Source: Azospirillaceae bacterium
Lineage (GTDB): Bacteria; Pseudomonadota; Alphaproteobacteria; Azospirillales; Azospirillaceae
Assembly: GCA_028281465.1 (NCBI GenBank)
Contig: JANQJV010000274.1
Coordinates: forward strand, 1-49,397
Direction: 5' to 3'
Length of the DNA stretch: 49,397 nucleotides
Shown here piece after piece: positions 34,089-47,098 of the stretch (the stretch's first letter is position 1; each line of letters begins with the position of its first letter). The translations under genes were made by a program, and so were the position numbers. A model generated the notes under the pieces. That model was not told the DNA's origin, searched no databases, and saw only the letters and a list, made by a program, of their open reading frames with translations.

Positions 34089-34925
34089 CTACTGCTCGAC
34101 ACGTGGCTCGGCATTGGGAAAAAACAACTGCTGCCCATGGACCCGATAGTCGGCGATTGCCTCCTGGCCCCGTGCCGACACCAGCCAATCGATAAAGCGC
34201 TGCCCCGCGGCTGCGTTCACGTGGGGGTGTAACGTCGGATTGACCAGGATCACGCCATAGGGGTTGAACAGATCAGGATCGCCCTCAACCAAAACCATGA
34301 AATCCGCTTTATTGCCAAAACTGATCCAGGTGCCCCGGTCAGTCAATACATAGGCCGCCATGCCGACCGCGACATTCAACGTCGCACCCATGCCAGATCC
34401 GGTTTCCCGATACCAAGTGCCGCTAGCGGCGCTTGGATCGATCCCGGTCGTCTGCCACAACGCCAACTCCCGTTTATGCGTACCGGAATCATCGCCACGT
34501 GAGACAAAGCGCGCCTTGGACCGGGCGATCCGCGTCAGAGCTTCGGCTGCCGAGGCAAGGCCTAAAATCCGCGCTCGATCCGTCGGCGGCCCCACGATCA
34601 CGAAGTCATTGGCCATGACATCATGCCGCTCCACACCAAACCCTTCCGTGACGAACTGCTCTTCCGCCTCACGGGCATGGACGAGGACCACGTCCCCGTC
34701 ACCATTGCGGGCATTGCGCAGGGCTTGCCCGGTCCCAACGGCCACCACATACGCGGTGATTCCTGTATCGGCCCAGAACAAGGGCAGCAGGTGCTCATAC
34801 AGGCCAGAGTTGGCTGTCGATGTGGTCGACTGGACGATGATCGTCTCGCCCGCGGCGCGCACGGTGCCGAGGCTGGCAGCGCAAACGACCAGCACCAAGA
34901 GCAGTCTGAAAGCAACACTCCGCAT
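34089..34925 (-). CDS. tupA: tungstate ABC transporter substrate-binding protein (TupA)
   Basis: This 278-residue periplasmic oxyanion-binding protein has a signal peptide ending near LGTVRAAGET. The binding motif STTSTANSGLYEHLLP directly follows the mature start; TTTS-type motifs of this kind are the hallmark of TupA. Further matches are VDVVLVHA-type DVVLVHAREAEEQFV, and SRGDDSGTHKRELALW, which holds the second half of the site. AAGGAG ends 7 bases before the ATG. It is the last gene of a permease-ATPase-SBP operon that is divergent from a formate dehydrogenase operon. Tungstate is the expected ligand; molybdate binding in vivo cannot be excluded from the sequence. Confidence 0.92.
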   Translation of the reverse strand: MRSVAFRLLLVLVVCAASLGTVRAAGETIIVQSTTSTANSGLYEHLLPLFWADTGITAYVVAVGTGQALRNARNGDGDVVLVHAREAEEQFVTEGFGVERHDVMANDFVIVGPPTDRARILGLASAAEALTRIARSKARFVSRGDDSGTHKRELALWQTTGIDPSAASGTWYRETGSGMGATLNVAVGMAAYVLTDRGTWISFGNKADFMVLVEGDPDLFNPYGVILVNPTLHPHVNAAAGQRFIDWLVSARGQEAIADYRVHGQQLFFPNAEPRVEQ

Positions 34926-34953
34926 GGTCTTTCTCCTTCACCCGTCCCCCGGG

Positions 34954-35721
34954 TCATAGGACGATCAAACCGGCAAGGAATCGGCGGGCCTCGGAACTGG
35001 TTGGGGCAGCAAAGAAATCAGCCGATGGCGTTTGTTCGCAAACCTGCCCGCGGTGCAAAAACACCACTTCGTCACCCAACCGCCGCGCCTGGCCGACGTC
35101 GTGAGTGACGAACAACATGGTCGTGCCACGGCCGCGGGTCGATCGCACGATGTCTTCGATCCAAAGCACGGATGCAGGATCGAGACTGGCCGTCGGTTCG
35201 TCCAGGAACAGCACGCTGGGTTCCATCGCCAAAGCTCTGGCCAGCGCCAATCGCTGCTGCTCGCCACCGGACAGCAACCGCGCCGGTTGCTGTGCCCGGT
35301 CTGCCAATCCAACAGTCTGAAGCAGCACTTGTCGTCTGGCTCGGTTACGGTTTCCGTGCAGTCCGAGTACGAAGTCGATATTGGCTGCCACCGAGCGGCG
35401 CAGGAGCACGGGCTTCTGGAATACCATGGCTTGCCGCTGTGGGCGACCATCTCCGGCGGTGCGCCAGTGCACTGTACCAGCGGTCGGTTGGATTAATCCG
35501 TGCAGAACCCGCAACAGAAGGCTCTTACCGGCCCCGTTGGGACCCATAATGATGGTGGTAGCGCCACTGCGCAGGGTGAGATCAACACGGTCCAAGAGTC
35601 GCTGGCCCTCGACCTCAACCACCAGGCCGCTTGCGCACAGCGCCGGTGGCTCTCGTGACCGGTCCTTTGACTGGGCAGCGACGCGTGCAGGTAGCTGAGA
35701 TGAGCCTGCTGAGTCAGGCAT
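34954..35721 (-). CDS. tupC: tungstate ABC transporter ATP-binding protein (TupC)
   Basis: This 255-residue ATPase powers the tungstate importer. Walker A reads GPNGAGKS, the signature LSGGEQQRL, Walker B LFLDEPTASLDPAS, and the switch histidine is in FVTHDVGQARRL. The ABC domain begins about 30 residues in, after a polar N-terminus; the ATG at 35721 is chosen because it overlaps the permease gene stop by 8 bases, whereas the frame to 35766 lies mostly over the permease. It shows no C-terminal TOBE/molybdate-binding extension, as is normal for TupC and unlike ModC. Confidence 0.9.
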   Translation of the reverse strand: MPDSAGSSQLPARVAAQSKDRSREPPALCASGLVVEVEGQRLLDRVDLTLRSGATTIIMGPNGAGKSLLLRVLHGLIQPTAGTVHWRTAGDGRPQRQAMVFQKPVLLRRSVAANIDFVLGLHGNRNRARRQVLLQTVGLADRAQQPARLLSGGEQQRLALARALAMEPSVLFLDEPTASLDPASVLWIEDIVRSTRGRGTTMLFVTHDVGQARRLGDEVVFLHRGQVCEQTPSADFFAAPTSSEARRFLAGLIVL

Positions 35722-36421
35722 GGGCGTGTCGTTCGGTCTGGTGGCGGACGGCAAAGACCAGCGCATTGACCACCAGTGCCAATGTCATGAGCACCAGACC
35801 CAGGGCGAGCGCCATGGCCAGGTCGCCTTTGGACGTTTCAAGGGCAATCGCCGTTGTCATAACCCGGGTGAGATGGTTGATGTTACCACCGACAATGATA
35901 ACGGCACCAACTTCGGAAATCGCCCTGCCAAAGCCGGCCAAGGCCACGGTCAACAGGCTCCAACGCCCATCCCACAGCAAGGCGGCAATGGCCACGTGAC
36001 CGGGCACGGCAAGGGAGCGAAACTGTTCGGCATATTCGGTGTGCAAGTCTTCGATGGCCTGCCGTGTCAGGGCGGCCACGATCGGTGTGATCAAGACCGT
36101 TTGCGCAATGATCATGGCACCTGGTGTGTACAGGAGATGGAGGAAGCCCAGTGGTCCCGCATTTGATAGCAACAGGTAAACCAGGAGGCCGACCACCACC
36201 GGTGGCAGCCCCATCATCGCATTCAAGGCAACAACAACGGCGCCGCGTCCCGGGAAGCGGCATGTGCCGAGCAAAGCCCCAAACGGCATGGCAATGGCGC
36301 AGGATAGCGCCAAAGCGGTCATACTCACAGTCATGGATAGTCCGACGATCTCCAGCAGATCGGCATCAGCCGTCACCACCAATGTCAGGGCCAAGCCCAA
36401 AGCGGCATCCAGATCGTGCAT
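35714..36421 (-). CDS. tupB: tungstate ABC transporter permease (TupB)
   Basis: This 235-residue permease has five to six membrane helices. The family blocks are NAMMGLPPVVVGLLVYLLL and the coupling loop LAGFGRAISEVGAVIIVGGN, which is the EAA-type motif near residue 165. The gene leads the operon; the region before it is the 145-base spacer shared with the divergent formate dehydrogenase genes, so tungstate uptake and formate oxidation could be co-regulated from one spacer. Confidence 0.9.
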   Translation of the reverse strand: MHDLDAALGLALTLVVTADADLLEIVGLSMTVSMTALALSCAIAMPFGALLGTCRFPGRGAVVVALNAMMGLPPVVVGLLVYLLLSNAGPLGFLHLLYTPGAMIIAQTVLITPIVAALTRQAIEDLHTEYAEQFRSLAVPGHVAIAALLWDGRWSLLTVALAGFGRAISEVGAVIIVGGNINHLTRVMTTAIALETSKGDLAMALALGLVLMTLALVVNALVFAVRHQTERHAHA

Positions 36422-36566: not shown

Positions 36567-38306
36567 ATGCCGGACGGAACGGGGCGACGAGGGCGCGACC
36601 GCGACCGCCGATTCCCGAAGGGCCGAAGCCTCGAACCTCAGGCGCTGGCCCAGGTGCAGAGCCTGCTGGGGGATGCTCCCCGGCGCCGCGACGAGCTGAT
36701 CGAATACCTGCACCTGATCCAGGATGCCTACGGCGCGTTGGCCCATCGCCATCTGATGGCCCTGGCCCATGAGATGCGCCTGGCCCCGGCAGAGGTCTAT
36801 GAGGTCGCCAGCTTCTATGCCCATTTCGATCTCCTGCCGGATGACGCTGGTCCCGCGCCCGAGGTGACCGTGCGCGTGTGCGACGGAATTGCCTGTGCCA
36901 TGCACGGAGCCGCAGCCCTGCATCATCACCTGGTTGCCGACGCACCATCCAGCGTCCGCGTGGTGCGGGCCCCGTGCATGGGTCGGTGCGAAGTCGCTCC
37001 CACGGTCGAGGTCGGTCATCGGCATGTCGACCGGGCGCACGCCTCGGCGGTGGCTGCCGCGATCACTGCCGGAGCAACAACCCCCGTCCTCCCACCGGCC
37101 GTGGATTTCGATGCCTACTGCCGCGACGGTGGTTACACCTTGGTCCGTCGCCTGCGTGTTGGCCAACTGGCTGCAGACGCCGTCATTGCAGAAATCGCAG
37201 CCGCCAATCTGCGCGGTTTGGGCGGCGCCGGCTTTCCGACCGCGCGGAAGATGGAAATCGTTCGGCGGCAACCGGCGCCGAGGATCCTGGCTGTGAACGC
37301 GGATGAAGGTGAGCCTGGCACGATCAAGGATCGGTTCTTTTTAGAGTCCGACCCGCATCGGGTGCTGGAGGGGATGCTGCTCGCGGCGATCCTGGTCGGT
37401 GCCGAAACCTGTTACATCTATGTGCGCGATGAGTACCCGGCGGCCATTGCCCTGTTGCGCCGGGAAATTGAGCGGCTTCGAACATCCGGTCTGCTGGAGG
37501 GACTTGCCGTCGCGGTACGGCGTGGCGCCGGCGCCTATATTTGTGGCGAAGAGTCGGCGATGCTGGAATCGCTCGAGGGAAAACGAGGCCTGCCGCGGCA
37601 CAAGCCGCCTTATCCAGCAGAGGTTGGCCTGTTCGGGCGGCCGACCTTGACCCACAATGTGGAAACATTGTATTGGCTGCGGGCCATCGTTGAACGTGGT
37701 GGTGCCTGGTTTGCCGACCAAGGCCGTAACGGACGGCAAGGGCTGCGCAGCTTCTCGGTCTCGGGTCGCGTCCGGCGGCCGGGGGTCAAGATTGCACCCG
37801 CCGGCATCACCCTGCGGCAGTTAGTCGACGAGTTCTGCGGTGGGATGGCCGATGGTCATCATCTGAAGGCCTATTTGCCCGGCGGGGCGTCCGGCGGCAT
37901 CTTACCGGCCCATTTGGCGGATGAGCCCTTGGATTTCGGCACCTTGGAGCCACACGGCTGCTTCATAGGCTCGGCCGCCATCGTCGTGTTTTCCGACCAC
38001 GACAACATGGCCGATGTGGCGCATAATCTGATGGCGTTTTTTGCCGACGAATCTTGCGGCCAATGCACACCCTGCCGGCTCGGCACCGAGAAGGCGCTCG
38101 CCTTGCTTCAACCGGGACGTTGGGACGCACCCTTGCTGCATGACCTGGGCCAGGTCATGCGCGATGCTTCGATTTGTGGCCTGGGGCAGGCAGCCCCCAA
38201 CCCGGTCGATTGCGTATTGAAGTATTTCCCGGAAGATGTGGCCTGCGCCGGCCAAAGCCGGTGGGGGCTGGCGCCACGGCCCGACGGCGAGGGGGACCAT
38301 CCATGA
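36567..38306 (+). CDS. fdh1B: NAD-dependent formate dehydrogenase beta subunit (fused NuoE/NuoF-like, Fdh1B type)
   Basis: This 579-residue diaphorase subunit passes electrons from the formate site to NAD+. Residues 1-165 are NuoE-like, with [2Fe-2S] cysteines in CDGIACAMHG and CMGRCEVAP. The rest is NuoF-like: the FMN site in GLGGAGFPTARKMEIV, the NADH site in GAGAYICGEESAMLESLEGK, and the [4Fe-4S] motif SCGQCTPCRLG. The fused arrangement and length match the beta subunit of tungsten-dependent FDH1 of Methylobacterium extorquens rather than the split FdsG/FdsB proteins. The ATG at 36567 follows GGAAGGAAAC by 6 bases; the frame from 36507 is longer but lacks a good site. Its stop overlaps the alpha gene (ATGA). 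Confidence 0.92.
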   Translation: MPDGTGRRGRDRDRRFPKGRSLEPQALAQVQSLLGDAPRRRDELIEYLHLIQDAYGALAHRHLMALAHEMRLAPAEVYEVASFYAHFDLLPDDAGPAPEVTVRVCDGIACAMHGAAALHHHLVADAPSSVRVVRAPCMGRCEVAPTVEVGHRHVDRAHASAVAAAITAGATTPVLPPAVDFDAYCRDGGYTLVRRLRVGQLAADAVIAEIAAANLRGLGGAGFPTARKMEIVRRQPAPRILAVNADEGEPGTIKDRFFLESDPHRVLEGMLLAAILVGAETCYIYVRDEYPAAIALLRREIERLRTSGLLEGLAVAVRRGAGAYICGEESAMLESLEGKRGLPRHKPPYPAEVGLFGRPTLTHNVETLYWLRAIVERGGAWFADQGRNGRQGLRSFSVSGRVRRPGVKIAPAGITLRQLVDEFCGGMADGHHLKAYLPGGASGGILPAHLADEPLDFGTLEPHGCFIGSAAIVVFSDHDNMADVAHNLMAFFADESCGQCTPCRLGTEKALALLQPGRWDAPLLHDLGQVMRDASICGLGQAAPNPVDCVLKYFPEDVACAGQSRWGLAPRPDGEGDHP

Positions 38307-41071
38307 CCGAGCATGTGACTTTCACGTTGGATGGGCGCATCCTTAAGGCAAAGCCGGATGAGACCATCTGGCAGGCGGCTCACAGCGCCGGCATCGCTCT
38401 TCCCCATCTATGCTGGAAACCCGACCCCGGCTACCGGGCCGATGGCAATTGCCGTGCCTGTATGGTCGAGATCGAAGGAGAGCGGGTGCTGGTGGCCTCG
38501 TGTATCCACCGACCGCGGGACGGAATGGTGGTGCGGGCCGCGTCGCCGCGCGCCGAGGCATCGCGACGTCTGGTGTTCGAATTACTGGCTGCCGACCAAC
38601 CAACGCGTGACCACGCCCCTGATCCCGATAGTGCCTTCTGGCGTTGGGCCGACCACATTGGTGTGGCGACCAGTCGATTTCCCGGCCGCAGCCACCCGGC
38701 GCCCGACCTAAGTCATCCGGCCATGCGCGTCAACCTGGATGCGTGCATCCACTGTACCTTGTGTGTTCGGGCCTGCCGTGAGGTGCAAGTGAACGACGTC
38801 ATTGGCATGGCGGGCCGCGGAACGGGTAGCAAGGTGGTGTTCGATTTCGATGACCCCATGGGCACCAGCACCTGCGTGGCGTGCGGCGAATGTGTCCAAG
38901 CCTGCCCGACCGGAGCATTGATGGAAGCGAGCCTCGTGGCGACCGATGGACGCCGTATGGCTTGGCCAGATCGACAGGTCGAGTCCCTGTGTCCATATTG
39001 TGGTGTTGGATGCCAGATAACCTACAATATCAAGGATGATCGCTTGCTGTCCGTGGACGGTCGCGATGGACCGTCAAACCAGAATCGGCTCTGCGTCAAG
39101 GGGCGTTTCGGCTTCGACTATGCGCACCACCCGCACCGTCTGACCGTGCCGTTGATCCGGCGCGAGGAGGCACCGAAATCAGCCGATTGCCGGATCGATC
39201 CGGCCGATCCCTGGAGCCATTTCCGTGCGGCGACCTGGGAGGAGGCGCTGGCGCGGGCAGCCAACGGCCTGCGTCGCATCCGTGACCGTGACGGTGGTCG
39301 GACCCTGGCCGGCTTCGGATCGGCCAAGGGCTCAAACGAAGAAGCCTATCTGTTCCAGAAATTGGTGCGCACCGGCTTCGGTAGCAACAACGTTGATCAC
39401 TGCACCCGGTTGTGCCATGCCTCCTCGGTCGCCGCGCTCATGGAGACCATCGGCTCTGGAGCAGTCACCGCTCCAGTGGCGGAATGCCGCAATGCCGAGG
39501 TGATCTTCGTCATCGGCGCCAACCCAACCGAGAACCACCCGGTGGCCGCGACCTATTTGAAACAGGCGGCCAAGCGCGGAGCCATCCTCATCGTTGCCGA
39601 TCCGCGGGGACAGACCCTGGCGCGCCATGCCACATACACACTGCCGCTCAAGCCGGGCAGCGACGTGGCGCTCCTCAACAGCGTGATGCATGTCATCATT
39701 GCCGAAGGTCTCGAAGATCGAAACTATGTGGACAGCCATACCGAAGGCTTTGCCGCCCTCAAGGAACGGGTCTGTCCCTTCAGCCCAGAGGCGATGGCAC
39801 CCCACACCGGCATTGCCCCCGACCTGTTACGCACAGTCGCCCGGACCTTTGGCCGGGCCCGCACCGCGATGATTTTCTGGGGCATGGGCATCAGCCAGCA
39901 TGTCCATGGCACCGACAACGCCCGCTGCCTGATCAGCTTGGCCCTGTTGACCGGCCAGGTCGGGCGGCCCGGCACCGGCCTGCATCCGTTGCGCGGGCAG
40001 AACAATGTTCAGGGCGCGTCGGATGCTGGCCTCATCCCCTTGGTCTATCCGGACTATCAGCCGGTCACCGACCCCACTGTGCGCACCCAATTCGAGGCGG
40101 CCTGGAATGCGCCGCTTGACCCGGACCGCGGCCTGACCGTCGTGGAGATCATCAATGCCATCCATGGTGGGCAGATCAAGGGCATGTACATCATGGGTGA
40201 GAACCCGGCCATGTCGGACCCGGACCTGAACCACGCCCGGTTGGCACTGTCGGGGCTGGAGCACTTGGTCGTGCAGGATATCTTCCTGACCGAGACCGCC
40301 TTCCACGCCGATGTGGTGCTGCCGGCGTCCGCCTTCCCAGAAAAGACCGGCAGCTTTACCAACACGGACCGGCGGGTGCAGCTCGGCCGGGCAGCGGTGC
40401 CACCGCCCGGTGACGCGCGGCAAGACTGGTGGGTGATTCAGGAGATCGCCCGTCGGCTCGGTCTCGATTGGACTTACACACATCCGCGCGACGTGTTTAC
40501 CGAGATGCGCCAGCTCATGCCGTCGATCAAAGGCCTTTCTTGGGACCGGCTGGAACGCGAACACGCGGTTACAGCGCCGGTGGAGGCGGAGGACGAACCC
40601 GGCCGGGAGGTCCTGTTCGGTGACGGTTTCCCCACGCCCTCCGGGCTCGGCAAATTCGTACCGGCGGATCTGATCGCACCGGCAGAGGTGCCCGACGCCA
40701 CCTATCCCTTCGTGCTGACCACCGGGCGACTGCTGGAGCATTGGCATACGGGGGCCCTCACGCGCCGCGCCAGCGTGCTCGATGCACTGGAACCAGAACC
40801 CTACGTCCACATGCATCCACACGCGCTGGACAAGGCTGGCATCATGCCGGGAGCATCGGTCCGCCTGAGCACGCGGCGCGGCACAATCACACTAAAGACC
40901 CGTGTCGATCGCAATGTACCGCCGACCATGGTTTTCTTACCATTTTGTTACCACGAAGCGGCGGCCAACCTTTTGACCAATCCCCAACTCGATCCGTTCG
41001 GTAAAATTCCTGAATACAAACTTTGTGCCGTGCGGGTCGAACCGATCCAAGAAGGGTTGGCAGCAGAGTAG
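38303..41071 (+). CDS. fdh1A: formate dehydrogenase alpha subunit (molybdo/tungsto-bis-MGD, Fdh1A/FdsA type)
   Basis: This 922-residue catalytic subunit oxidises formate to CO2 at a Mo- or W-bis-pyranopterin site. An N-terminal ferredoxin domain carries Cys37, Cys50, Cys53 and Cys67. The usual His-Cys NuoG-type box after it is not visible (HAPDPDSAFWRWAD there instead), so that cluster appears lost. Two [4Fe-4S] motifs follow (CIHCTLCVRAC, CVACGECVQAC), then CPYCGVGC for the cluster near the active site. The active-site residues are Cys371-His372 in HCTRLCHAS; it is a cysteine, not selenocysteine. The ATG at 38303 overlaps the beta stop. With tupABC next door, tungsten is the likelier metal (inference). 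Confidence 0.93.
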   Translation: MTEHVTFTLDGRILKAKPDETIWQAAHSAGIALPHLCWKPDPGYRADGNCRACMVEIEGERVLVASCIHRPRDGMVVRAASPRAEASRRLVFELLAADQPTRDHAPDPDSAFWRWADHIGVATSRFPGRSHPAPDLSHPAMRVNLDACIHCTLCVRACREVQVNDVIGMAGRGTGSKVVFDFDDPMGTSTCVACGECVQACPTGALMEASLVATDGRRMAWPDRQVESLCPYCGVGCQITYNIKDDRLLSVDGRDGPSNQNRLCVKGRFGFDYAHHPHRLTVPLIRREEAPKSADCRIDPADPWSHFRAATWEEALARAANGLRRIRDRDGGRTLAGFGSAKGSNEEAYLFQKLVRTGFGSNNVDHCTRLCHASSVAALMETIGSGAVTAPVAECRNAEVIFVIGANPTENHPVAATYLKQAAKRGAILIVADPRGQTLARHATYTLPLKPGSDVALLNSVMHVIIAEGLEDRNYVDSHTEGFAALKERVCPFSPEAMAPHTGIAPDLLRTVARTFGRARTAMIFWGMGISQHVHGTDNARCLISLALLTGQVGRPGTGLHPLRGQNNVQGASDAGLIPLVYPDYQPVTDPTVRTQFEAAWNAPLDPDRGLTVVEIINAIHGGQIKGMYIMGENPAMSDPDLNHARLALSGLEHLVVQDIFLTETAFHADVVLPASAFPEKTGSFTNTDRRVQLGRAAVPPPGDARQDWWVIQEIARRLGLDWTYTHPRDVFTEMRQLMPSIKGLSWDRLEREHAVTAPVEAEDEPGREVLFGDGFPTPSGLGKFVPADLIAPAEVPDATYPFVLTTGRLLEHWHTGALTRRASVLDALEPEPYVHMHPHALDKAGIMPGASVRLSTRRGTITLKTRVDRNVPPTMVFLPFCYHEAAANLLTNPQLDPFGKIPEYKLCAVRVEPIQEGLAAE

Positions 41072-41248
41072 GCCCTGGTCCAGTCGGCCCTGTTGCACGG
41101 GTTTGACCCTGCCGGCAGGTCGGAAATGGGTCAGGAGATGGCGCACGCCGAGCAGACCGGCCGGGCTCGCGCGGTAGGGTCGGAGCCATGTTGCTTCGGA
41201 CACCAGAGTTTCTTTGGTGTGCTCCGCCCCTGATCCAGGTCAACCGCC

Positions 41249-41680
41249 ATGGCACCCCCGTCTCCATGTTTTTCCCCGCTCCATGTCGGTTATCCGGTCC
41301 TGGATGTGGCCAACGGCGATGTGACCAAGGTTCTGAACCAGTTGCAATGGGCCCGTGGACACCTCCAACTCCAGGCAGCGATGCACGACCTGGTCACCAC
41401 CTTGGCAACGCTGTTCGAGATCCGCCTCGATCTCATGGCCGTGTACGAACATCCTGGGCGCGCCCTGTGCCTGGTCCGCCAGATGGAATTGATGCGGTTC
41501 CTGGAGGCCCAGGTGATTGCGTTCGATTTGGGCGTCTTGCCCGAGGTCGACGAGTTGGTGGCGCATCTGGGCACGCGTCTGGGTAATGACGTGCGACTGA
41601 TCGACCAATCCTTGGTCCGCTGGATCCAAGAGGCGCAGCCATCCGTGCCGTTTCCGGGGGCTACCATCGATCGCACGTGA
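41249..41680 (+). CDS. hemerythrin-fold protein with lost iron ligands (pseudo-hemerythrin)
   Basis: This 143-residue protein aligns well with bacterial hemerythrin in layout: a start like GYPVLD, helix A, helix B around 45-63, the turn YEHPG near 66-70, helix C and helix D ending RWIQ. The iron ligands are replaced. The first His of helix A is Asn22; the HxxxE of helix B reads Leu55 and Leu/Asp; the HPGLxxH histidine is Cys74; the HxxxxD of helix D is Asp114 with Asp119 kept. Only that Asp remains of the usual seven ligands, so diiron O2 binding is unlikely. It lies between the formate dehydrogenase and the fhs gene on the same strand, where FdsC/FdsD genes are found elsewhere. Role unknown: structural or chaperone function for the enzyme is possible. 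Confidence 0.6.
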   Translation: MAPPSPCFSPLHVGYPVLDVANGDVTKVLNQLQWARGHLQLQAAMHDLVTTLATLFEIRLDLMAVYEHPGRALCLVRQMELMRFLEAQVIAFDLGVLPEVDELVAHLGTRLGNDVRLIDQSLVRWIQEAQPSVPFPGATIDRT

Positions 41681-41686
41681 TGGGCA

Positions 41687-41720
<34 letters not shown>

Positions 41721-41773: not shown

Positions 41774-43504
41774 ATGGATGGGGCAAGTGCGGTACCCATG
41801 GCCTCGGCCGTGGACTGGGCTACGTCCGCTATGCCATCGGATATCGAGATCGCCCGCGCGGCCAAGATGCGGCCGATTTGGGAGGTGGCCGAGGAACGCC
41901 TTGGCATTCCGATCGACAGCCTGGAAATGTACGGTCGTTACAAGGCTAAACTGCATCTGAATTACATAAAATCACTGGAAAATCAGCCAGATGGCAAACT
42001 GATCCTGGTGACCGGCGTAACGCCGACGCCGGCTGGCGAAGGCAAGACCACAACCACCGTGGGGCTCGGCGATGCGCTCAACCGCATCGGACGCAAGGCG
42101 ATGATCTGTCTGCGCGAGCCGTCACTGGGGCCATGTTTCGGCATGAAAGGGGGTGCCGCCGGTGGCGGATACGCACAGGTCGTGCCGATGACCGACATCA
42201 ACCTGCACTTCACCGGCGACTTCCATGCCATCAGCACGGCGCACAACCTGCTGGCCGCCATGCTGGACAATCACATCAATTGGGGCAACGGCCTCAATAT
42301 CGATCACCGTCGGATTTCCTGGGGCCGGGTCATGGACATGAATGACCGGGCCCTCCGCCAGATCGTGTGCGGTCTCGGTGGGACAACCAACGGCTTTCCG
42401 CGCGAAGACAGCTTCACCATCACCGTGGCATCCGAGGTGATGGCGATCTTCTGCCTGGCGCGGGATATGGATGATTTGCACCAGCGTTTGGGCAATATTG
42501 TGGTGGCACGGTCACGCGATCGGACACCGATCTTGGCCAGCGATCTTGCGGCCCATGGGGCCATGACGGCACTCTTGGCCGATGCATTGATGCCTAACCT
42601 GGTGCAGACGTTGGAGAACAACCCGGCCCTGATCCATGGCGGACCATTTGCCAACATCGCCCATGGCTGCAATTCCGTGCTGGCGACGCGAGCCGCATTG
42701 AAACTGGCTGATTATGTCGTCACGGAAGCCGGCTTTGGTGCCGATTTGGGAGCCGAAAAGTTCTTCAACATCAAATGCCGCAAGGCTGGGTTGACGCCGG
42801 CCTTGGCGGTGCTCACCACAACCGTCCGCGCCCTCAAGATGCACGGTGGTGCCGCCAAAGACCAACTGAAGGCCGAAGGGCTTTCGGCATTGGTCAAAGG
42901 CTCAGCCAATTTGGTGCGTCATATCGAAAACCTGCGCTCGCACGGCGTGCCGATCGTCGTTGCCATCAACCGTTTTCCAAGCGACACCGAACGGGAGCTG
43001 GATTTGCTGCGCCAGGTATGCAGCGAGATGGGCGTGGCTGCGGTTGTCGCCGAGCATTGGGCCAAGGGCAGTGCTGGCGCCGAAGCATTGGCCCATACGG
43101 TGCTGCACACACTCGACACGGAACCGGTCGACTTTCGCCAGCTTTATCCCGATGACATGCCGTTGTGGGAGAAGGTTCGTACGATCGCCCAGCGGATGTA
43201 TGGAGCCCAGGGGATCATGGCGGAGAAAAACGTCCGCAGCCGCTTTGCCGAATTGCAAAAGGGCGGCTACGGCCATTACCCCGTGTGCATCGCCAAAACA
43301 CAGTACAGTTTTTCCACGGACCCGAACCTGCTCGGTGCTCCCAGCAACCATCATGTGCCGATTCGGGAAATTCGGCTCGCTGGCGGTGCAGAGTTCGTAG
43401 TGGTGATCTGTGGTGACATCATGACCATGCCGGGCCTACCGCGAACCCCCTCGGCGGTCAACATGGGTGTGGGGGACGACGGGGAAATCTACGGATTGTT
43501 CTGA
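41774..43504 (+). CDS. fhs: formate-tetrahydrofolate ligase
   Basis: This 576-residue ATP-dependent ligase forms 10-formyltetrahydrofolate from formate and tetrahydrofolate. Typical blocks are the P-loop-like [58 protein letters not shown] and the C-terminal [18 protein letters not shown]. Length matches the family (about 555-560) plus a short N-terminal extension. The ATG at 41774 has GGGAGAAAAC 6 bases upstream; the upstream ATG at 41720 would add 18 residues. It sits in the same direction as the formate dehydrogenase genes, so formate can go either to CO2/NADH or to the folate pool. Confidence 0.93.
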
Positions 43505-45841: not shown

Positions 45842-47098
45842 TCATCGCAGGAGCTCTCCGAACGGCAGGAACCGGACGGCCGTCCCTGGGGTAACAGCGG
45901 AAATGTCTTCACCCAATTCCACCAGGCCGTCACTGTGGACCAGGGAACTCAGGATACCGGCTCCGTCGCGTGGAAACTTCTGGGCCCGGGGCGGTCCATG
46001 TCGCTCGTCGATGAGCCGCACGCGGACGAACTCGCGACGCCCGATTTTCTTGGTGTAGGCGAAATCGGCGGTGACGCGGAAGCCAAGCGGATCGGCGTCG
46101 CTGGCGCCGGACAACCGCCGGACCAGGGGCCGAGCCAATGTCAAAAACGTGACCATGACGGCCACCGGATTGCCCGGTAAGCCGACGAACGGCGTCCCTT
46201 GGACCACCCCCAGCGCCACCGGCCGGCCGGGTTTGATGGCGAGGCGCCAGACATGCAGGGCACCAAGGGCTTCGACGGCCGGCTTGATATGGTCTTCGTC
46301 GCCGGTCGAGGCGCCACCGGAGGTGAGCACCAGATCGTGATCGGCGGATGCGACCACCAAGAGGTCGCGGAGCGTTTCGAAATCATCGGGCACGATGCCG
46401 AAATCCGTGACGACGGCCCCCGTTGCGTGCAACAGGGCATGCAGCAGGAATCGGTTGGCGTCGTAGATGCCGTGTGCTGGCAGGGGGGTGCCTGGATTGC
46501 ACACCTCGTCGCCGGTGGAGAACAGGGCCACTCTGAGGCGCGTGCGCACCGGTAGGACCGCGCGGCCGACCGAGGCGACGAGTCCGATGTCCTGTGGTCG
46601 CAGGACGTGGCCGGCAGCCAAGATCACGGTGCCTTTGGTGATATCCTCACCAGCGCCGCGGCGATTCGCTCCGCGTTTGATGCCCCGAGGAATGAGCACG
46701 GTGTCGCCATCGTGACGGCAGTCCTCCTGCATGAGCACGGTGTCGAAGCCCAAAGGCATTGGCGCGCCGGTGAAGATGCGGATCGCCTCGCCACGCACAC
46801 CGGCGCGTCCGAGCCCATGCCCGGCGGCGACACGGCCGGTTACGGGCAGGGCGGTCTCGGCGTCTGGCGACAGGTCGTCGAAGAAGACCGCATAGCCGTC
46901 GACCGCCGAATTGGCATGCGGTGGAACATCAATCTGGGCCTCGACATCGGTGGCCAGAACGCGCCCGAGGGCCGCTTGGAGCGGTACGGTCTCGATGCCG
47001 GTTACCGGCCTCAGGATGGTTTCCAGGCGCGCACGCGCGGCCTCGACCGACGTGAGCGGCCCGCCGAACGCGAAACAATCATCGGTGAGCTGAGCCAC
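45842..47098 (-). CDS. moeA: molybdopterin molybdenumtransferase (MoeA)
   Basis: This 418-residue enzyme inserts molybdate (or tungstate) into adenylylated molybdopterin, the last metal step of cofactor synthesis. Typical blocks are DVPPHANSAVDGYAVF, then GEAIRIFTGAPMPLGFDTVL, LFSTGDEVCNPGTPLPAHGI, TSGGASTGDEDHIKPAVEAL and GLPGNPVAVMVTFLTLARPL. Length is the usual one. It lies 5 kb from the formate dehydrogenase genes, which need this cofactor, and tungstate uptake genes are on their other side, so all three steps (metal uptake, cofactor, enzyme) are within 13 kb. No MoaA-E, MobA or FdhD genes are in the window. Confidence 0.93.
   Translation of the reverse strand: MAQLTDDCFAFGGPLTSVEAARARLETILRPVTGIETVPLQAALGRVLATDVEAQIDVPPHANSAVDGYAVFFDDLSPDAETALPVTGRVAAGHGLGRAGVRGEAIRIFTGAPMPLGFDTVLMQEDCRHDGDTVLIPRGIKRGANRRGAGEDITKGTVILAAGHVLRPQDIGLVASVGRAVLPVRTRLRVALFSTGDEVCNPGTPLPAHGIYDANRFLLHALLHATGAVVTDFGIVPDDFETLRDLLVVASADHDLVLTSGGASTGDEDHIKPAVEALGALHVWRLAIKPGRPVALGVVQGTPFVGLPGNPVAVMVTFLTLARPLVRRLSGASDADPLGFRVTADFAYTKKIGRREFVRVRLIDERHGPPRAQKFPRDGAGILSSLVHSDGLVELGEDISAVTPGTAVRFLPFGELLR

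Follow-up and report, generated by a model that had tools for sequence, protein, structure and literature searches.

What is a small gene doing between those for a formate dehydrogenase and a formate-tetrahydrofolate ligase? The question arises in an Azospirillaceae bacterium, on a whole contig of its 6.3-Mb draft genome (the window, i.e. the whole stretch of DNA that was analysed, is 49,397 nt long). Judged by named fdh1A loci and by the sampling of the family, its relatives appear to be Azospirillum-like. A sequence-only reading had described the product as a hemerythrin fold stripped of its iron ligands, had placed it where other operons encode the FdsC/FdsD helper proteins, and had proposed a structural or chaperone role linked to the enzyme. 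Our analysis supports the first of these ideas and argues against the other two. The gene (hereafter the ORF; Table 1) most likely encodes a strongly diverged bacteriohemerythrin paralogue, which kept the four-helix bundle, lost the di-iron site, and is found in one genome only. We give this explanation a probability of roughly 65%.

Table 1. The ORF and the neighbouring features in the window
Feature	Position	Strand	Basis or remark
tupABC-like tungstate ABC transporter genes	34089..36421	-	divergent, upstream; NF041772, NF041773
tupA-like	34089-34925	-	NF041772 TupA sole match, below curated cut-off
transporter ATPase	34954-35766	-	part of the tupABC-like set
transporter permease	35714-36421	-	NF041773 TupB second-best match, below curated cut-off
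fdh1B-like beta subunit, NuoE-NuoF fusion	36567..38306	+	Pfam 2Fe-2S_thioredx, Complex1_51K and NADH_4Fe-4S
fdh1A-like alpha subunit, tungsten-type NAD formate dehydrogenase	38303..41071	+	TIGR01591 above cut-off; PDB 7vw6/8j83
gap between fdh1A and the ORF, 177 nt	41072..41248	+	pattern scan
ORF, degenerate hemerythrin-fold protein	41249..41680	+	143 aa; coding signature, profile match, model, ligand alignment
perfect GCGACG hexanucleotide repeat, 5.5 copies	41688..41720	+	between the ORF stop and fhs
fhs, formate-tetrahydrofolate ligase	41774..43504	+	NF010030 above cut-off; PF01268
moeA	45842-47098	-	

The ORF is a real coding frame. It runs from an ATG start to a TGA stop, and its codon-position G+C (0.69/0.39/0.75) is coding-like, as in the neighbour genes, the value at position 2 being the minimum along the whole frame. 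A low position-2 G+C is usual for hydrophobic helices.

Profile comparisons identify the protein as a remote homologue of bacteriohemerythrin. A family profile, built from ten hemerythrins (eight from the source genome and two from relatives, the query excluded), matched residues 11-130 with E=1.7e-4 (hmmsearch, 2002 sequences); the best of 2000 shuffles reached E=0.27. Against the family's hemerythrins, hhalign gave a probability of 94% (E=1.4e-7). When the hemerythrin profile was run against 110 fdh1A loci, the ORF came first (E=9e-4) of 9986 ORFs in six frames, and the next frame had E=0.73. Identity to the family's hemerythrins is approximately 18%, and the alignment spans the full length. 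By whole-domain homology, the protein thus belongs with the bacteriohemerythrins, but it stays outside the curated cut-offs, because the Pfam (PF01814) and NCBIfam models do not match it even at E=10. The profile search suggested by the sequence-only reading therefore succeeded with the family-built profile and failed with the curated models, whose silence points to an extreme divergence. The only phmmer match in the PDB, RsbR (E=0.97), is meaningless and was discarded.

The predicted structure agrees with the sequence evidence. An AlphaFold2 model from single-sequence input, of moderate confidence (pLDDT 67, pTM 0.55), has helices at residues 16-34, 38-65, 71-93 and 100-129, forming an up-down four-helix bundle like those of McHr and DcrH-Hr. 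By itself, Foldseek could not tell cytochrome b562 bundles from those of hemerythrin. VIA-align 2 separated the two, in favour of the hemerythrins. The best eight matches of the model in VIA-align 2 were all bacterial hemerythrin entries (McHr and DcrH-Hr; Z 15.0-15.5, rmsd 2.5-2.7 across 123-128 residues), followed by a designed bundle (Z 13.6) and by receptor fusions (Z at most 12.8). The margin is modest for a helical bundle, yet it agrees with the independent evidence from the profiles, and the hemerythrin fold proposed from the letters is borne out by the model.

Of the iron-binding site, almost nothing is left. The motifs picked out by eye (LD near residue 18, YxxPG near 66 and D114-x4-D119) are all correctly placed, and the claim that six of the seven ligands are changed holds in the alignment. 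The columns that in hemerythrins carry H, H, E, H, H, H and D are occupied here by N22, L55, R59, C74, Q78, D114 and D119, and only the aspartate D119 is kept. This is not the equipment of a functional O2-binding bacteriohemerythrin, with its five His, one Glu, one Asp and two irons. Since an arginine stands at the position of the bridging Glu, a leucine (L55) at one of the His positions, and no ligand position still holds a His, a di-iron site of the hemerythrin type is not expected, and the protein is probably metal-free.

Ordinary hemerythrins from the same surroundings look different. Across the source and related genomes, 45 other hemerythrin domains keep five to seven ligands, and the single other ligand-poor exception, L174, is a weak 14-bit match and perhaps an incomplete domain. 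The 11 Pfam-detected hemerythrins of the source genome, when aligned, have 7/7 ligands in nine cases and 6/7 in two. The two with one ligand changed each are L167 and L168 on contigs C312 and C173 (Gln for Glu; Asn for the second His). The source genome, with its 11 hemerythrins, and the relative G005, with 30, hold more of them than most others sampled. By phmmer, the sequences nearest to the ORF protein are two hemerythrins of relatives, L010 (E=2e-4) and L011. Both were rejected as orthologues, as each proved to be an ordinary hemerythrin domain with its seven ligands complete. No known ligand-poor clade in the sample is therefore the origin of the ORF protein, which appears to have diverged alone.

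No orthologue of the ORF was detected in 81 further genomes from the family, in 384 genomes of the class or 397 of the phylum (samples that partly overlap), in plasmids or viral contigs, or, by a peptide-pattern scan sensitive to close relatives only, in GTDB genome contigs. The source genus was represented in these searches by this genome alone. As far as could be searched, the ORF is a single-lineage gene, confined to one genome.

A gene so isolated could be a decaying relic, i.e. a hemerythrin duplicate whose function is gone and whose sequence drifts, with no stops yet. Its presence in one genome only, the loss of nearly all functional residues and its invisibility to the curated family models would all fit such a fate. 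The frame speaks against it, being intact, with the codon-position asymmetry kept at this distance from the family's hemerythrins and a helix pattern predicted over the full length. In a crude neutral-drift model, which begins from the present-day ORF, frames of its length were stop-free in 2-5% of trials at 15-28% identity (a stop arose in at least 95% of cases), and position-2 G+C was flattened to 0.53-0.58, versus the 0.39 observed. Because stop-free drift is rare in the model and the position-2 signal does not survive it, the frame looks maintained, at least until recently, and we consider a relic unlikely.

The genomic setting is the second part of the puzzle. The sequence-only reading correctly set the ORF beside formate dehydrogenase genes, as it lies between fdh1A and fhs, on their strand. 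The start of fdh1A overlaps the end of fdh1B (start set at 36567, although GTG 36507 could serve instead), and an FdhB neighbour is present in nearly all fdh1A loci. By pattern scan only, neither a sigma70-like promoter nor an intrinsic-terminator-like site was found in the gap between fdh1A and the ORF, and the scan from fdh1A to fhs as a whole gave no promoter-like or terminator-like site, which makes a single transcript of fdh1A, the ORF and fhs plausible. The start of fhs was placed at ATG 41774, behind GGGAGAA; GTG 41720, at the end of the GCGACG repeat, is a less likely alternative. Changes in the copy number of this repeat could alter the spacing between the ORF and fhs. The TupABC-like genes and moeA flanking the locus resemble the moeA1-mobB-tupBCA cluster of M. 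extorquens (PMC13197769), and the moeA of the window may encode a tungsten-specific insertase. Another moeA-like frame of the source genome adjoins fdhD at locus L139, on contig C401.

FdsD and FdsC are helpers of the Rhodobacter/Cupriavidus-type formate dehydrogenase, encoded in fds-type operons. The neighbouring enzyme, judged by its closest structures, is of the Methylorubrum FDH1 type and not of the fds type. The best PDB matches of its alpha subunit are the MeFDH1-type entries of Table 1, and also 7e5z/7xqw (E=0). A direct query with the FdsD of a relative found no FdsD-like frame in any of the 110 fdh1A loci, and just seven of them have an FdhD/FdsC-like gene within the flank covered. 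The sole FdhD of the source genome is on a separate contig, C401. PF11390, the FdsD family, had no match in the source genome, but its control matched nowhere either, so that absence does not follow. In contrast, a relative's separate fds operon carries FdsC and an FdsD-sized frame directly after the alpha gene. The slot thus belongs to the other enzyme type, and at the fdh1A loci there is no FdsC/FdsD place for the ORF to fill, contrary to what had been proposed. Nor does the protein belong to either helper family, since phmmer with the relative's FdsD gave a best score of -0.8 bits, and no Pfam match to the FdhD-NarQ domain of FdsC/FdhD was found.

One alternative is a partner dedicated to the assembly or structure of the formate dehydrogenase, similar to FdsD or FdsC in action and recruited in this lineage only. 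This alternative draws on the position of the ORF, directly after fdh1A, on the same strand and with no terminator-like or promoter-like site between, on the predicted helical bundle, and on the reported need of the M. extorquens FDH1 alpha subunit for protection during maturation, which the beta subunit gives in that species (PMC13396061). Against it, the M. extorquens enzyme is described as an alpha-beta heterodimer with tungsten (PMC13197769; tungsten and two subunits also in PMC13396061). We also compared 109 other fdh1A loci, 80 of them named (mostly from alphaproteobacteria, some from gammaproteobacteria) and 29 from the family. At least 700 nt downstream were covered in 102 of the 109, and approximately 1.5 kb in the family loci. 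Searches of all frames with the hemerythrin profile and with the ORF found no hemerythrin-like gene beside fdh1A at any of the 109. The sequence-only reading had itself made co-occurrence with formate dehydrogenase genes decisive, and its absence counts against a role linked to the enzyme. With no conserved neighbourhood, no FdsD at FDH1-type loci and a sequence dissimilar to FdsD and FdsC, the proposed structural or chaperone function loses its footing, and a dedicated partner appears improbable. Found in one genome only, the gene looks like a local oddity rather than a general formate dehydrogenase helper. That the iron-free fold became a new subunit or maturation partner, or a coupler between the formate dehydrogenase and the formate-tetrahydrofolate ligase, in one Azospirillaceae-like lineage is a long shot.

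Highly doubtful, too, is an altered site at which D114, D119, C74, Q78, N22 and nearby residues hold a different metal or just one iron, as R59 and L55 work against a metal pair and none of the five His positions is still His, even though potential ligands stand at five of the seven positions (N, C, Q, D and D) and PMC4919030 raises an altered metal preference for ligand variants among single-domain hemerythrins.

We therefore favour the strongly diverged, iron-free paralogue, for which the 11 ordinary hemerythrins of the source genome are possible sources. The protein would most likely fold as a metal-free bundle, in which R59, close to D114 and D119, could build a buried salt-bridge cluster that replaces the iron pair as the staple of the core. 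Oxygen binding by the hemerythrin mechanism would be impossible. If functional, this small helical protein may serve in binding or as a scaffold and, because its gene sits between theirs, would be made along with the tungsten-type formate dehydrogenase and the formate-tetrahydrofolate ligase. Proof that it binds the enzyme would make it a new accessory of a tungsten formate dehydrogenase with biotechnological uses. Among the titles and abstracts listed, we found no report that ties a hemerythrin to a formate dehydrogenase operon.

Compared with known systems, the ORF resembles FdsD and FdsC in being short and in following the gene for a formate dehydrogenase alpha subunit, but it differs from them in sequence, and its operon is of the FDH1 type instead of the fds type. 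Adjacency alone does not make it their substitute, as the FDH1-type operons here show no FdsD. The closest likeness is with the single-domain bacteriohemerythrins. McHr of Methylococcus capsulatus (PDB 4xpx, PF01814) has the same length and four-helix layout, and it is among the best structural matches of the model (Z 15.4); the alignment spans the full length, and bacteriohemerythrin shares with the ORF protein the GxxxLD near residue 18 and the YxxPG turn. Unlike these proteins, the ORF product has six of its seven iron ligands replaced and falls below Pfam and NCBIfam detection. Altered ligands as such have been described before. PMC4919030 reports them in 106 single-domain hemerythrins, alpha-proteobacteria included, and asks whether they reflect loss or a new function; beyond its general remark there, we found no description of a hemerythrin with nearly all ligands lost. 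As far as that general description allows a comparison, those variants and the ORF protein share a hemerythrin fold with changed iron-coordinating residues, the change in the ORF protein being near complete. The kind is thus already known, and the ORF would be an extreme variant of it, a clean case of a metalloprotein fold surviving the loss of its metal site with its frame still open.
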